A DNA stretch of 45,030 nucleotides from IMG/VR virus record IMGVR_UViG_3300035138_000207, positions 1-45,030 of that record, one strand, 5' to 3'. How positions within the stretch are numbered: position 1 is the first letter of the stretch; each line of letters starts with the position of its first letter. The notes under the pieces were generated by a model. That model was not told the DNA's origin, did not search any database, and was given only the letters and a program-made list of their open reading frames with translations. Origin of the DNA: a virus. The position numbers were made by a program, and so were the translations under genes. Shown piece by piece: positions 37,366-44,186 of this stretch.

Positions 37366-38233
37366 TGTAGACGGAAGAAATTTCCCGAATTTGGCATTGA
37401 TGAAATTATCAGCATGGCATAAATAAAGAGGTGATAAAGTTGAATTCGCTTCTATGTTCGGGCAGTATGATTTAATATATAAAAGCAAAGTATTTACTTT
37501 CACACCGGACAATAATTATGCGTATAATTGTGATAAGGAAATAAAAGGCGGAACCGGATACGGATTTGAATCATATTTGTTAAATGCAATTGAACATAGA
37601 TGTCCTGATTATTCACTGTATGATTGTAAACATGCTTACGGGTTTTTAACCCGCGGATGTATAAGAGATTGTCCCTGGTGCATAGTTCCGAAGACAGAAG
37701 GGAATATAAAGGCGGCTGCAGATATTGAGGATTTTCTCGCAAATTATAAATCGGCTATATTGATGGATAATAATGTACTGGCTTCCCCATGGGGAATAAA
37801 GCAGATAGAAAAGATTATTAAACTCGGTATCAAAATAGATTTCAATCAGGGCCTAGACGCAAGGTTGGTTGATGATTCTATTGCTAAATTATTAGCAAAA
37901 GTTAAATGGATCCGGTATATACGATTTGCTTGTGATACCTGTTCACAGATGGAGGATATTGAAAAATCGATAAAACTAATTAGGAAATATTCCGGAAAAG
38001 TCGGCGAATATATGTGTTATATGCTTGTAACTGACGATATTGAGGACGCTGCGGAAAGAGCATCCTTTTTAAGGAGTTTAAATATAAATGCTTTCGCACA
38101 GGCATATAGAGATTATGAAAATAAAATTATAGTTAATAGAGAAACAAAAGAATTTTGTAGATGGGTAAATATTAAATCGTTTTTCAAGACTTTTTCTTTT
38201 GAGAGATGGCTACAGATAAGGAATGTACATTAA
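37346..38233 (+). CDS. radical SAM protein interrupted by an in-frame TAA
   Basis: The frame starts at ATG 37346 (MNIGLIDVDGRNFPNLALMKLSAWHK), meets TAA at 37424-37426, then continues without shift as RGDKVEFASMFGQYDLIY to the end. Family members I recall read straight through here with a residue such as Gln or Ala. The downstream part from ATG 37454 has 259 residues, the cluster motif CIRDCPWC (C-x3-C-x2-C) at its residues 69-76, and a TIM-barrel-like pattern. Only the first 36 residues are lost if translation restarts at 37454, but that ATG lacks a ribosome site. It may be a nonsense mutation (CAA to TAA), a sequencing error, or readthrough. Role unknown. Confidence 0.7.
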
Positions 38234-38269
38234 TGATATTTTTAAAAATTATATATAAGGATGGCATAA

Positions 38270-39211
38270 TTGAATGAGTTGGCTCTTTTCGCGGGCTCTG
38301 GTGGAGGAATACTCGGAGGATTTCTCCTCGGATGGAAAACAATCTGTGCAGTTGAAAAAGATCCCTATTGTGCAGGGGTACTTATACAAAGGCAAAATGA
38401 AGGCATTCTCCCGCCGTTCCCTATCTGGGATGACGTTTGCACTTTTGACGGACGCTTATGGAGAGGCATTATTGACATCGTTTCTGGAGGCTTTCCATGC
38501 CAGGACACCAGTCAGGCGGGAAAAGGAGCTGGACTTGACGGGGAAAAGTCAGGACTTTGGAAGGAAATGGCAAGAATCATTCGCGATGTTAGACCAAAAA
38601 TCGTTTGGGTGGAAAACTCGTCAATACTCAATCAACGGGGACTTGACCAGATTCTCCGGGACCTGGCCGAGATGGGGTATAATGCTCGATGGGGAGTGCT
38701 GGGAGCTGATGATGCCGGAGCGAATCACATCAGGAAGAGAACATGGATTCTGGCGTACACCGGATGCAGGAACTCATGGGAATGTAGCGACACCAAACAA
38801 GAGTGTAATAAATGGAACGGCAAGGAAGAATCAACAAATAAGATTAGTCGATCAAGTTACAATGTGGCCCACTCCGACACAATCAGATTACCGGACAGGA
38901 TACGGAATGTCAAATGCCGGCAAAAAGAGAATGAAACATTCCAGGGGCAAGCCTCTCCGGGATGTAATATTCAGAACTCCGACACAATCGGACGCGAACA
39001 AATGGTCCAACCAATCGGAAAGGGAACGCAAGGAAAAAGGACAATCTGTCAGGTTGAACCATCAACTGGAAGTTGGTGGAAAACTGAACCCGATGTGGGT
39101 AGAATGGCTGATGGGGTGGCCGCTAGGGTGGACAGACTTAAAGCCATTGGAAACGGACAAGTTCCGGCAGTGGTTAAACTCGCATGGAGTATTTTGAGTA
39201 ATATACGATGA
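38270..39211 (+). CDS. C5-cytosine DNA methyltransferase
   Basis: This 313-residue protein starts at a TTG with AAGGA eight bases upstream. Motif I is LALFAGSGGGILGG (residues 4-17), the catalytic Cys77 lies in GGFPCQD, ENS is at 115-117, and the motif VIII-like HIRKRTW is at 153-159. A variable polar target-recognition region spans 165-275, and motif X RLKAIGNGQVP lies near 289-299. It methylates cytosine in phage DNA, probably against host restriction. Its whole length is overlapped in the +1 frame by another long coding frame. Confidence 0.85.
   Translation: MNELALFAGSGGGILGGFLLGWKTICAVEKDPYCAGVLIQRQNEGILPPFPIWDDVCTFDGRLWRGIIDIVSGGFPCQDTSQAGKGAGLDGEKSGLWKEMARIIRDVRPKIVWVENSSILNQRGLDQILRDLAEMGYNARWGVLGADDAGANHIRKRTWILAYTGCRNSWECSDTKQECNKWNGKEESTNKISRSSYNVAHSDTIRLPDRIRNVKCRQKENETFQGQASPGCNIQNSDTIGREQMVQPIGKGTQGKRTICQVEPSTGSWWKTEPDVGRMADGVAARVDRLKAIGNGQVPAVVKLAWSILSNIR
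38274..39197 (+). CDS. overlapping-frame protein inside the methylase gene
   Basis: This 307-residue frame starts at an ATG four bases inside the methylase gene and ends 14 bases before it, all in the +1 frame. It begins MSWLFSRALVEEYSEDFSSDG and contains FSGTWPRWGIMLDGECW and, near its end, LNPMWVEWLMGWPLGWTDL. These are hallmarks of a phage protein family I recognise, often annotated beside or as cytosine methylases. A stop-free frame of this length is unlikely by chance, so both frames are probably under selection. Function unknown; it might be a methylase partner. Expression of both would use starts four bases apart. Confidence 0.6.
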   Translation: MSWLFSRALVEEYSEDFSSDGKQSVQLKKIPIVQGYLYKGKMKAFSRRSLSGMTFALLTDAYGEALLTSFLEAFHARTPVRREKELDLTGKSQDFGRKWQESFAMLDQKSFGWKTRQYSINGDLTRFSGTWPRWGIMLDGECWELMMPERITSGREHGFWRTPDAGTHGNVATPNKSVINGTARKNQQIRLVDQVTMWPTPTQSDYRTGYGMSNAGKKRMKHSRGKPLRDVIFRTPTQSDANKWSNQSERERKEKGQSVRLNHQLEVGGKLNPMWVEWLMGWPLGWTDLKPLETDKFRQWLNSHGVF

Positions 39212-39930
39212 GTCAAAAAACGAAAATTGAATGGTGCGATATTACCTGGAATCCGGTATGGGGTTGTTTAAGAGGGTGTGAATATTGTTATGCAAAGAGA
39301 ATTTCAAGAAGATTTTATAGAAAAATTGGTAATATCGATATCAATTATAAACTTGATAATAATATAATTCCATACTCAGAAAGTCTGATTGAAAGATATG
39401 AGGAATACGATAATCTTTACAATTTCCATCCAATCTGGCTGGAATCAAATTTTCAAAAAAAATTCCCTAAGAAACCATCCCATATATTTGTTAATTCCAT
39501 GTCGGATATATGCTATTGGCAGCCTGAATGGATATATAGGGTTTTCGACAGGATTAAACAATATCCGCAACATAAATTCTTGTTTTTAACAAAAGATATG
39601 AAATCATATTTTATTAATTATCCGGAAAACTGCTGGCTCGGAATTACAGCGGCTGATCAGAAACAAATGGATAATCTCGGCTCTTTTACCTCAAGTCATA
39701 TAGTGTTCATATCGGTTGAACCAATTCAGGAAAAAATAAAATTAACAGTAAAACCGAACTGGTTAATAATTGGTGCTGAAACCGGTAATCGTAAAAATAA
39801 AGTTATTCCTGAAAAAAGCTGGATAGCAAATTTATTATTAGAAGCGGACAGATATTTAATACCTGTTTTCATGAAAGACAATCTCAAGCCTGTTTGGGGA
39901 AATGAACTTATCCAGGAGTGGCCGGAGTAA
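39208..39930 (+). CDS. phage Gp37/Gp68 (DUF5131) radical-SAM-like protein
   Basis: This 240-residue protein begins SQKTKIEWCDITWNPVWGCLRGCEYCYAKR with Cys20, Cys24 and Cys27 in a C-x3-C-x2-C cluster site. It continues IFVNSMSDICYWQPEWI, FLFLTKD, NCWLGITA, ISVEP and WLIIGAETG, the ordered strands typical of the DUF5131/Gp37-Gp68 family. It probably binds a 4Fe-4S cluster; the substrate is unknown. It starts in an ATGA overlap with the methylase. Confidence 0.9.
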   Translation: MSQKTKIEWCDITWNPVWGCLRGCEYCYAKRISRRFYRKIGNIDINYKLDNNIIPYSESLIERYEEYDNLYNFHPIWLESNFQKKFPKKPSHIFVNSMSDICYWQPEWIYRVFDRIKQYPQHKFLFLTKDMKSYFINYPENCWLGITAADQKQMDNLGSFTSSHIVFISVEPIQEKIKLTVKPNWLIIGAETGNRKNKVIPEKSWIANLLLEADRYLIPVFMKDNLKPVWGNELIQEWPE

Positions 39931-40723: not shown

Positions 40724-41281
40724 ATGAATGATAGATTAGGTGACTGTATTCAGACATATACGGGTAAACAATTCTATCCACTAGATGTGCGCCAGGAAGA
40801 TATCGATATTGAAGATGTCGCCCACGCATTATCCATGAAATGCAGGTATAATGGACATTGCCGGAAATTTTATTCGGTGGCAGAACATTCTGTTTACGTG
40901 GCCAGGGAACTGGAATGTCGATATCCTGCCGATAAAAATGTTATTCTATGGGGATTACTTCATGATGCGGGCGAAGCATATTTGCCGGATACTCCCAGTC
41001 CTATTAAACATATGGGGATCGGCATTTTATCAAAATGCGAAGAGGATATTTTAAAGGTTATATCAAAAAAATATGATTTATCATATCCGCCGCCGGTCGA
41101 AGTGAAAAAAATAGATAATATTTTATTGATGACTGAAAGAGCCCAGGTAATGGCTGGAGGATGTGTCTCAGGATGGAATTTATCAGAACTTCCGATTGAT
41201 TTGGAAATAATATTTTATTCGCCGATGGTTTCAAAAACAATTTTTTTGAGTGAATTTAATAGAATAAATAATATGAGGTGA
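40724..41281 (+). CDS. HD-domain phosphohydrolase
   Basis: This 185-residue protein has the HD metal-site order RKFYSVAEHSVYVAREL (His55), LWGLLHDAGEAYLPDTPSP (His80-Asp81), and a later Asp in KKIDNILLMTERAQVM near 128-143. It resembles YfbR-like 5'-deoxynucleotidases and HD proteins common in phages, so a role in nucleotide-pool control is likely. Strong AAGGAG ribosome site; the stop precedes the next ribosome site. Confidence 0.8.
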   Translation: MNDRLGDCIQTYTGKQFYPLDVRQEDIDIEDVAHALSMKCRYNGHCRKFYSVAEHSVYVARELECRYPADKNVILWGLLHDAGEAYLPDTPSPIKHMGIGILSKCEEDILKVISKKYDLSYPPPVEVKKIDNILLMTERAQVMAGGCVSGWNLSELPIDLEIIFYSPMVSKTIFLSEFNRINNMR

Positions 41282-41289
41282 TATTTTAT

Positions 41290-41658
41290 ATGCTGGCATT
41301 ATCAATCCGTGAACCCTGGATATATGCTATTCTGCATTTAAAAAAAAATGTTGAGAATAGAACCTGGCCAACGAAAGTTTGTGGCAGAATTTTATTACAT
41401 GCATCAAAACAGTTCGATTATGATGGCTATAGATGGATTGAAAATGAAATGGGATATATTCTTCCTGAAAAAGATATGTTTGAACTTGGCGGTATTGTGG
41501 GATCAGTAGAAATAACAGACTGCATTAAATATCATGATTCAGGCAAAAAAATTCCTTCATGGTTTTTTGGTCCTTATGGATTTATATTAAAGGATCCTGA
41601 ACCAATAAATTTTATATTATATAAAGGGCAGCTTGGATTTTTCGAGGTTCATATATAG
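41290..41658 (+). CDS. ASCH-domain protein
   Basis: This 122-residue protein starts at the ATG nine bases after GAGGTG. LALSIREPWIYAILHLKKNVENRTWPTKVCGRILLHASK (2-41) is a clear ASCH/PUA-like signature, followed by GGIVGSVEITDC near 66-77 and FFGPYGFILKDPEPI. ASCH proteins bind RNA or modified nucleosides; some cut RNA or deacetylate nucleosides. Here it may act on RNA or modified bases alongside the DNA methylases. Its stop overlaps the next GTG start. Confidence 0.85.
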   Translation: MLALSIREPWIYAILHLKKNVENRTWPTKVCGRILLHASKQFDYDGYRWIENEMGYILPEKDMFELGGIVGSVEITDCIKYHDSGKKIPSWFFGPYGFILKDPEPINFILYKGQLGFFEVHI

Positions 41659-44186
41659 TGAATAATTCAGATTATTTAAAATTTCTAAAAAACAAAATGA
41701 AGCTTGCTGTCTCTTCAGGTATTGACGTTGCCAAAATAGACATCCAAAACATAAATACCGGAGTAAAGAAATTAAAGCCGCATGAAATTGACGCGATTAG
41801 ATGGGCTGCTATCGGAGGACGTCGCGCATTGTTCGAATCATTCGGACTTGGTAAAACATGTCAGCAGCTTGCGCTTGCGAAATTAATTACAGACAGGGAA
41901 GACGGTAAATTTTTAATTATTATGCCGCTCGGAGTTAAGCAGGAATTTAAAAGAGACGCTCAGGATTTTTTTAATATTAACGATATCGTTTATGTAAAAA
42001 CACTGGAAGAATGCAGGGAATCAAGCAGTAAAATACTGATTACCAACTACGAGCGAGTCCGCGACGGGAATATTGATCCTAATTATTTTATTGGATGTTC
42101 CCTTGATGAAGCATCTATACTAAGAGGATATGGCACAAAGACATATCAGACTTTTTTGACATTATTTGACGGAGTCAAATATAAATTTGTCGCAACTGCA
42201 ACGCCTTCGCCTAACAGATATAAAGAGTTAATTCATTATGCCGGTTTTCTTGGAATAATGGATACTGGGCAGGCCCTCACTCGTTTTTTTAAAAGAGATT
42301 CGACAAAAGCCAACAAGCTGACTTTGTATCCGCATAAAGAAGAAGAATTCTGGCTGTGGGTATCGACCTGGGCGCTGTTTATTACAAAGCCTTCAGATCT
42401 CGGATATGACGATACGGGTTACGATCTGCCGCCTCTGAACATTCATACCCACAGGCTGAAAGTCGATCATTTGACTGCAGGCGCCGACCGGATGGGGCAA
42501 ATGCAGCTATTCAGGGATGCGGCACTATCAATTCAGGATGCCTGCAAAGAAAAGAGAGACAGCCTTGATAATCGTATAGATGAAATGATGCGGATTATTG
42601 ATGCTAATCAGGAAAAGCATTTTATTATCTGGCATGATCTTGAATCGGAAAGGCACGCGATAAAAAAAGCATTGCCTGAAGTAAAGGAAATCTATGGAAC
42701 ACTTGATATTGATATTCGTGAACAAAGGACCATCGATTTTTCAGACGGTAAAATAAAGTATATCGCTACAAAACCGGAAATATCCGGATCCGGGGTCAAC
42801 TGGCAGCGGTATTGCTCAAATGCTATATTTTTAGGCATAGGATACAAGTTTAATGATTTTCTGCAGGCTATTCACCGTTTACGGCGTTTTCTTCAGGATA
42901 AGGAAGTTAATATTTTCATTATTTATACGGAATCGGAAGATCAGATATATCAAGTTCTTTTGCAGAAATGGCAGCAGCATGATTATCTTGTAAATAAAAT
43001 GATTGATATAATTAAAAAATATAACCTTTCAATTAATGCCATCGAAGACGGTTTAAAAAGGTCATTTCATCAGGAGAGAACAGAAGTGAAAAAAAACAGA
43101 TTTATTGCAATCAATAATGATAATGTAATTGAATGCCGGAATATGAAAGACAATTGTATTGATCTTTTGCTGACATCAATTCCTTTTAGCAATCATTACG
43201 AATATACGCCAACATATAATGATTTCGGTCATAATGAAAATAACGAAAAATTTTTCATCCAGATGGATTTTTTAACGCCTCATCTTTTAAGATTGCTTAA
43301 ACCGGGCAGGGTGGCCTGTATTCATGTAAAAGACCGCGTTTTATTCGGAAACGCGACCGGTGACGGAATGCCGACGATAGATCCTTTTTCAGACATGACG
43401 GTTTTTCATTTTATCAAGCACGGCTTCCGCTACATGGGAAGGATAGTCGTTTTGACTGATGTAGTCAGGGAAAATAACCAGACATACCGGCTCGGATGGT
43501 CCGAGCAGTGTAAAGACGGCACTAAAATGGGAGTCGGATGTCCTGAATATATACTATTATTCAGGAAGCTGCCTTCCAATAATAATAAAGCTTACGCCGA
43601 TAATCCCGTAATTAAATCCAAAAAGGAATATACAAGGGCGCAATGGCAGATTGATGCGCATGCTTTCTGGAAATCATCCGGAAACCGGCTTCTTTCATTT
43701 GAAGAATTAAAAAATATCAAGATTGATAATTTGCAGCATGCTTTTCGGGATTTTACTAGTAAAGAAATATATGATTATGACCAGCATATAGAATTGTCAA
43801 AATATCTCGATGAGAACAACCGATTGCCAGCTGCTTTCATGGTAGTGGCGCCTGGTTCATGGTCGGACCTTATATGGGATGATATTAACCGTATGCGGAC
43901 ATTAAACGGCAATCAATCCGCGAAAAATCTGCAAATGCATATATGTCCGTTTCAATTAGACATAGTTGAAAGGTTAATTAACAGATTTAGTAATAAAAAC
44001 GATGTTGTTTTTGACCCATTTGCTGGATTATTTACAGCCCCTTATATGGCCGTTAAAATGGGACGGAAGGGAATAGGAATAGAATTAAATCTGGAATCAT
44101 TTTATGATGGTGTTCAATATATGAATGCTGTTGAAGAAGAATATGAAACTCCGACATTATTTGATTATTTGGATATGGCAGGATAA
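41658..44186 (+). CDS. SNF2-like helicase fused to DNA adenine/cytosine-N4 methylase
   Basis: This 842-residue protein starts at a GTG overlapping the previous stop. The first half is a superfamily 2 motor: Walker A SFGLGKT (61-67), DEAS (150-153), TATPSP near 178, and a second RecA lobe ending FLQAIHRLRRFLQ. The second half is a beta-type N6/N4 methylase: catalytic-type TSIPF at 506-510 (in place of TSPPY/DPPY), then motif I DPFAGLFTAPYMAVKMGRKGIGIE at 786-809. It would translocate on and methylate DNA. The change of P to I in the catalytic loop may affect target or activity. Confidence 0.85.
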   Translation: MNNSDYLKFLKNKMKLAVSSGIDVAKIDIQNINTGVKKLKPHEIDAIRWAAIGGRRALFESFGLGKTCQQLALAKLITDREDGKFLIIMPLGVKQEFKRDAQDFFNINDIVYVKTLEECRESSSKILITNYERVRDGNIDPNYFIGCSLDEASILRGYGTKTYQTFLTLFDGVKYKFVATATPSPNRYKELIHYAGFLGIMDTGQALTRFFKRDSTKANKLTLYPHKEEEFWLWVSTWALFITKPSDLGYDDTGYDLPPLNIHTHRLKVDHLTAGADRMGQMQLFRDAALSIQDACKEKRDSLDNRIDEMMRIIDANQEKHFIIWHDLESERHAIKKALPEVKEIYGTLDIDIREQRTIDFSDGKIKYIATKPEISGSGVNWQRYCSNAIFLGIGYKFNDFLQAIHRLRRFLQDKEVNIFIIYTESEDQIYQVLLQKWQQHDYLVNKMIDIIKKYNLSINAIEDGLKRSFHQERTEVKKNRFIAINNDNVIECRNMKDNCIDLLLTSIPFSNHYEYTPTYNDFGHNENNEKFFIQMDFLTPHLLRLLKPGRVACIHVKDRVLFGNATGDGMPTIDPFSDMTVFHFIKHGFRYMGRIVVLTDVVRENNQTYRLGWSEQCKDGTKMGVGCPEYILLFRKLPSNNNKAYADNPVIKSKKEYTRAQWQIDAHAFWKSSGNRLLSFEELKNIKIDNLQHAFRDFTSKEIYDYDQHIELSKYLDENNRLPAAFMVVAPGSWSDLIWDDINRMRTLNGNQSAKNLQMHICPFQLDIVERLINRFSNKNDVVFDPFAGLFTAPYMAVKMGRKGIGIELNLESFYDGVQYMNAVEEEYETPTLFDYLDMAG

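Follow-up and report, generated by a model that had tools for sequence, protein, structure and literature searches.

Orphan methylases of phages usually serve to protect phage DNA. The described C5-cytosine methyltransferases closest to the phage locus analysed here are M.EcoHK31I (YGGCCR; Lee, Kam and Shaw 1995) and M.AquI (CYCGRG). In M.EcoHK31I, the small-subunit gene lies inside the large-subunit gene in another reading frame, and the beta polypeptide is 176 aa long. According to PMC3404938, the larger subunit of M.EcoHK31I has motifs I-VIII and X, together with a predicted target domain, whereas its smaller subunit has motif IX alone; in M.AquI, motifs I-VIII are on one chain, and motifs IX and X on the other, small chain.

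On this description, M.EcoHK31I appears to be the closest precedent for the present locus, which consists of a methylase in frame 0 (chain A) and a second product in the +1 frame (chain B). The likeness is one of layout, in that motif IX is on a different chain from motifs I-VIII and X, and the second gene is nested in another frame in both systems. However, the systems differ in several respects. Firstly, the two open reading frames (ORFs) overlap almost completely in the phage locus, with starts 4 nt apart and a chain B of 307 aa. Secondly, no partner nuclease was found among the genes scanned. Thirdly, the target-recognition domain is predicted on the larger subunit of M.EcoHK31I in PMC3404938, whereas it is assigned, less certainly, to chain B here. 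M.AquI, as described in PMC3404938, shares the separation of catalytic motifs I-VIII from the distal part of the enzyme, but both motifs IX and X are on its small chain, whereas motif X is on chain A here. The layout of M.AquI is resembled by three relatives of the locus (L144, L158 and L310), in which motif X is on the +1 chain.

A +1 ORF inside a C5 methylase has also been annotated in the Paenibacillus phages Shelly ('g55 internal gene') and Diva ('g49 internal gene'), although the start given there for the internal ORF is 184 nt inside the methylase gene, rather than 4 nt as here. Shelly gp56 matches phrog_1008 (E 5.2e-74), and these records give the function only as 'DNA methyltransferase'. 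Hence it was already on record that such ORFs exist. No description of the overlap family was found in the literature searched, with most subscription papers outside that search; the overlap is not described in the excerpts of PMC3404938, PMC3439449, PMC6456624, PMC4014571 and PMC6070908, nor in those of PMC3091744, PMC3025963, PMC10885494, PMC3711429 and PMC8227390. As far as this literature extends, the novelty lies in an overlap that is near-total and has twin starts, in how widespread it is, in the evidence of selection, and in the division of motifs.

Organisation of the locus

The window, meaning the whole 45,030-base virus record that was analysed, represents a tailed phage, as it contains terminase, portal, head protease, major head and tape-measure genes. 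The two ORFs that the original prediction had placed in one stretch of this record were confirmed, with starts four bases apart (Table 1). Chain A matches PF00145 (E 1.2e-29, residues 4-231) with a score of 104.2 bits, relative to a cut-off of 22, and phrog_363 (E 4.3e-65). Chain B, the ATG of which is directly preceded by an in-frame TGA, matches phrog_1008 (E 4e-25, residues 66-289) and phrog_26627 (E 5.1e-19); no family scored above cut-off for it in a search of Pfam and NCBIfam, with tRNA_anti-codon the best Pfam entry (E 0.17). Chain B is conserved across alignment A1, which like A2 omits loci L008 and L049, and comprises 57 rows following the removal of near-duplicates.

Table 1. Coordinates of features of the overlapping gene pair in the window
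Feature	Position	Strand	Basis or comment
Shine-Dalgarno-like AAGGA	38257..38261	+	8 nt before TTG, 12 nt before ATG; read from sequence
Chain A (frame 0), C5-cytosine methylase, 313 aa	38270..39211	+	TTG start 38270-38272, stop 39209-39211
Chain B (+1 frame), 307 aa, phrog_1008 / phrog_26627 family	38274..39197	+	ATG start
Chain B conserved N-terminus LFSRALVEEYSE	38283..38318	+	Opposite methylase motif I; invariant or near-invariant columns of A1
Chain A motif I	38288..38308	+	Position in window; taken to be motif I, SAM binding
Chain A motif IV, GGFPCQD, catalytic Cys	38486..38506	+	GFPC in 57/57
Chain B core segment W..S..SWKT..FS.TWPRWG...GECW, residues 99-143	38568..38702	+	Opposite motifs VI-VIII
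Chain A motif VI, WVENSS	38606..38623	+	EN[SV] in 57/57
Chain A motif VIII	38726..38752	+	R155, R157, W159 invariant
Central region	38753..39067	+	Chain A near neutral, no column at 90% identity; chain B with PTPT-type segments
Chain B MWPTPTQSD segment	38862..38888	+	Position in window
Chain B FRTPTQSD segment	38970..38993	+	Position in window
Chain B motif-IX-like segment LNPMWVEWLMGWPLGWTDL	39084..39140	+	hhalign to single-chain methylases
Chain A motif X RLKAIGNGQVPAV	39134..39172	+	hhalign of frame-0 C-terminus to single-chain methylases
Start of next gene (DUF5131)	39208..39211	+	Overlaps methylase stop as ATGA; sequence

On either side of the methylase pair is a radical-SAM-like gene, the upstream neighbour (37454-38233) matching phrog_9298 (E 9.2e-68), and the downstream neighbour (39208-39930), which begins in the ATGA overlapping the methylase stop, matching DUF5131/PF07505 (E 2.3e-35). 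Further along the window are a gene of the HD-type deoxyribonucleoside 5'-monophosphate phosphatase family (40724-41281; phrog_318, E 1.2e-53) and one for an 842-aa helicase (41658-44186; phrog_16, E 3.1e-114), residues 425-828 of which also match phrog_67, labelled DNA methyltransferase (E 1e-28). No endonuclease was recognised among the neighbour genes scanned.

Division of methylase motifs between the two frames

Frame 0 had been predicted to contain all the main C5-methylase motifs. Chain A does hold motifs I-VIII and X, with PCQ in 54/57 sequences besides the invariant GFPC and EN[SV], and motif VIII present; however, motif IX is absent. A motif-IX-like pattern, [LMA][MQ]G[FWY]P, was found in none of the 57 chain A sequences and in 53 of the 57 chain B sequences, while motif X (GNGQ[VI]P) was found in 51/57 chain A and 0/57 chain B sequences. 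Therefore chain A alone is not, by motif content, a complete monomeric enzyme. A wider scan of the overlap groups likewise never found the motif-IX pattern in frame 0, with the pattern missing real variants, such that it was in neither frame for 5/69, 24/78, 5/79, 3/78, 11/21 and 17/27 of the groups' unique methylases. The original prediction had also located hallmarks of the +1 product opposite motifs I and X. This is correct for the N-terminal hallmark, whereas the C-terminal hallmark, WVEWLMGWPLGW, is within the motif-IX-like segment, just upstream of motif X rather than opposite it.

The reading of LNP.WVEWLMG.P.GW as motif IX, and GNGQVP as motif X, follows the general scheme of C5-methylase motifs, and is supported by the homologous segments that single-chain actinophage methylases have in one frame, in the same order. 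An alignment of 26 such methylases (A3) was compared with each chain. Frame 0 aligned with the single-chain methylases over motifs I-VIII (99.9%, 157 columns), and its C-terminus with the motif X that immediately follows motif IX in these proteins (hhalign 91.4%, 28 columns, E 9e-7). The chain B segment aligned with the in-frame segment just before motif X (hhalign 97.3%, E 2.4e-11), which suggests, over 25 columns, homology to motif IX. An hhalign comparison found no homology between chain B residues 1-160 and any part of the single-chain methylases. The model of a single-chain member (pLDDT 66, pTM 0.69) matched M.HhaI along its entire length (249 residues, Z 22.7, rmsd 3.3; 1-416 of the model against 10-326). 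The AlphaFold2 model of chain B alone was poor (pLDDT 52, pTM 0.25), and Foldseek found no fold for it in the PDB at E <= 0.001; hence no chain B domain was structurally identified. A PDB profile match of chain B to 3nng (E 0.029, 41 residues) was taken as chance. The central region of chain B is presumed to be its target-recognition region.

The single-chain actinophage methylases, such as Tweety gp72, Hamulus gp68 and prophi104-2 gp17, share the motif-IX-like segment and motif X with the overlapping pair, but have all motifs in one frame, with the +1 frame keeping only an ORF resembling the chain B core. This core segment can also be traced in +1 ORFs of actinophages. In six actinophage methylases with every methylase motif in one frame (L246, L250, L256, L261, L283 and L292), the +1 frame opposite motifs VI-VIII scored 40-68 bits on the chain B profile, above all 200 permutations, which means that they may retain a short +1 protein or a relic of one.

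With motif IX missing from frame 0 and present in the +1 frame, the best reading of the two products is that they belong to a single enzyme.

Association of the +1 frame with methylases

The constancy of this association was surveyed in 398 genomes from the phylum of a Pseudomonas host, 24 of which contained phrog_1008. The phrog_1008 match shared its locus with a C5-methylase ORF at all 29 newly fetched loci, and at 28 of these the +1 profile also matched, in the frame one base after that of the methylase. One locus (L440) is represented only by its match to phrog_1008, and in another (L448) the methylase frame is cut short. Given duplicates (L436/L452 and L441/L454), and a few match rows without a locus, the 29 loci represent about 27 distinct places. 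No stand-alone member of the +1 family was found at these places in the 398 genomes, and thus the expectation that the family always overlaps a methylase held at every place examined in the survey. The suggestion that the overlap is ancient gains support from its occurrence in loci from many bacterial phyla, and in divergent branches of methylases.

Which chain carries the C-terminal part varies among relatives. Frame 0 of L144 and L158 stops shortly beyond motif VIII, and the +1 ORF extends into motif X. In the actinophage relative L310, a single +1 ORF bears the core together with motifs IX and X. L287 has three ORFs, one for motifs I-VIII, one for the core and one for the part with motifs IX and X. 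In RedFox, gp43 is the C-terminal part and gp42 the catalytic part. The catalytic parts of L310 and L289 closely resemble Hamulus gp68, in which everything is in one frame. Among very similar mycobacteriophage methylases, L310, L289 and L290 differ from L250 (Hamulus) in that the frame is broken inside the catalytic part or downstream of it, and hence the C-terminal part can be in one frame or the other. If the chains assemble, it would matter little which of them bears a module, and such movement between frames would be expected; single cases are also compatible with sequencing errors or decay.

These observations bear on the possibility that the methylase is complete and that the +1 ORF overprinted on it encodes a phage protein with a separate function. 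The +1 frame is conserved in its own right and has its own start, and it remains intact in six of 80 bacterial-genome loci (L097, L105, L110, L126, L133 and L142) with a single stop in the methylase frame. Those six copies may be decaying prophages, sequence errors, or instances of chain B having a role of its own. However, motif IX is in the +1 frame, with none in frame 0, the survey found no place for the family outside a methylase, and motif X can move onto the +1 chain. An independent role is consequently unlikely, and the proposal that the +1 product is a separate phage protein, unrelated to the methylase, was not supported.

Start codons and selection on both frames

Starts were counted at 242 of the 248 unique overlap loci, the other six being omitted because their profile matches fell short of the N-terminus. 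The +1 frame starts with ATG at 238 of the 242 loci, and with GTG at four, and a stop codon directly precedes this start at 226. A methylase NTG codon is exactly 4 nt upstream at 215 loci (112 ATG, 66 GTG and 37 TTG), leaving 27 without an NTG codon at this position. A Shine-Dalgarno-like tetramer is present 8-24 nt upstream of the +1 start at 194/242 loci. In the window, the AAGGA site could serve both starts.

Selection was measured by pairing close relatives, with each sequence used once, and classing changes by their effect in both frames. This resulted in 113 pairs, of which 78 were used and 35 dropped for undefined region borders. Actinophage methylases were rejected as plain non-overlapping controls, as they were not clean: their +1 frame also beats all 200 permutations. 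Therefore other genes of the same loci were used, with the +1 frame of 63 such gene pairs serving as a sham control. Among changes silent in frame 0, the +1 nonsynonymous to synonymous ratio was 0.40 [0.35-0.46] opposite motifs I-VIII and 0.31 [0.25-0.41] at the C-terminus, relative to 0.77 [0.69-0.88] in the sham frame. In the central region, the corresponding ratio (SN/SS 0.65 [0.54-0.79]) overlapped the sham, whereas NN/NS (0.66 [0.58-0.74]) did not overlap its sham value (0.90 [0.82-0.97]); alignment is uncertain here, owing to indels. Outside the centre, constraint on the +1 frame is thus clear, and inside it the signal is weak and mixed. The ratios for frame 0 were 0.14-0.22 over motifs I-VIII, 0.83-0.85 in the centre and 0.33-0.38 at motif X, meaning frame 0 is nearly free between motifs VIII and X. 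Purifying selection thus acts on both frames, judged by comparison with the sham control.

A different explanation for the arrangement is programmed ribosomal frameshifting, in which a ribosome that has translated motifs I-VIII in frame 0 moves into +1 to read the target region and motif IX, then returns for motif X, generating one chain. The order of motifs across the frames, I-VIII (frame 0), IX (+1) and X (frame 0), is indeed that of a single-chain methylase, and one shift after motif VIII would produce a full methylase in L144, L158 and the L310 group. However, two shifts would be required in the window. Furthermore, frameshifting leaves unexplained the selection on the +1 frame opposite motifs I-VIII, the conserved ATG with its directly preceding stop, and the openness of frame 0 between motifs VIII and X. 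As the sole mechanism, it is judged quite unlikely.

Openness of the +1 frame

The original prediction estimated the chance of a 307-codon stop-free run as (61/64)^307, or about 4e-7. The arithmetic is correct, but this is a naive null model. When each of 57 methylase genes was re-drawn synonymously 300 times, the +1 frame contained a mean of about 7 stops, and was stop-free in 26 of the 17,100 re-draws. In 200 codon permutations of the window gene that preserved its protein, there were at least 3 stops in the +1 frame, relative to the 2 observed, one being the TGA that precedes the ATG and the other the stop that ends the ORF. The score of the window on the +1 profile was 388.5 bits, with a maximum of 194.2 across these permutations. 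Chance openness of the +1 frame was therefore rejected on both the re-draws and the permutations.

Among the best 80 of 562 viral relatives, both frames were open in 79, with a single stop in the +1 frame of L008 the sole exception, and the third frame contained 12-29 stops. Searches with the +1 profile found the overlap intact in 80/80 loci from viral contigs (best 80 of 586), and in 72/80 from bacterial genomes (best 80 of 350), where the eight without a clean overlap are the six with a frame-0 stop and the two rearranged loci, L144 and L158. The methylase profile, a query carrying no bias towards the +1 frame, returned an intact overlap in 79/80 loci (best 80 of 584), with one stop in the +1 frame of L337. 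As these loci are best matches and mutually related, the counts are not independent events. Frequent +1 stops in close relatives had been named as the result that would overturn dual coding, and such breaks were found in only 1/80, 0/80 and 1/80 loci of the three viral samples.

The notion that the +1 ORF is untranslated, its openness and similarity being by-products of codon bias and a conserved methylase, has a negligible probability and is already contradicted: part of the similarity is such a by-product, since permuted genes still average 160 bits on the +1 profile, but the window gene scores far above the permutation maximum, has fewer stops than every permutation, and is accompanied by a selection ratio below the sham control and by twin starts.

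Discussion

Dual coding, as first proposed for this stretch, is strongly supported by the openness of the +1 frame in relatives, selection on both frames, the twin starts, and the constant overlap with a methylase. Judging from sequence evidence, the locus is probably an orphan phage two-polypeptide C5-cytosine methyltransferase, with its chains overprinted in two frames. Under this two-chain reading, ribosomes would load at one Shine-Dalgarno site and begin at either of two codons 4 nt apart. A weak TTG at good spacing, and an ATG at longer spacing, would result in both chains being made from one message, such that both frames would be translated. Chain A would supply the catalytic core (motifs I-VIII) and motif X, and chain B would supply motif IX and probably the target-recognition region, with the N-terminal part of chain B the likely product of overprinting. 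The chains would then assemble into one enzyme, presumably as a heterodimer, that would methylate the phage DNA, most likely as a defence against host restriction.

A broader generalisation, which we regard as evenly poised, is that these loci represent a widespread class of C5 methylase, in which a complete two-chain enzyme is encoded by a single stretch of DNA, almost end-to-end in two frames. The twin starts 4 nt apart would set the ratio of the chains. The C-terminal module, consisting of the target region, motif IX and sometimes motif X, would swap between chains through single frameshifts, since the two would assemble in either case. In this view, the N-terminal half of chain B would have arisen de novo by overprinting, as a domain that keeps the chains together.

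The arrangement is conserved in many phages and prophages, and is usually missed by gene annotation: an Acinetobacter phage record has one CDS at the overlap, and four E. coli genomes have the methylase only. If the two-chain reading is true, this overlap would rank with the longest of those known between same-strand phage genes, and with the most widely conserved. It would also explain why phrog_1008 sits on methylases, and is labelled 'DNA methyltransferase'. Annotation that allows one ORF per stretch would be calling half an enzyme, and methylation assays that clone the annotated frame alone might fail. The overlap would have a testable reason, in that its two products would be parts of one enzyme, made from one message.
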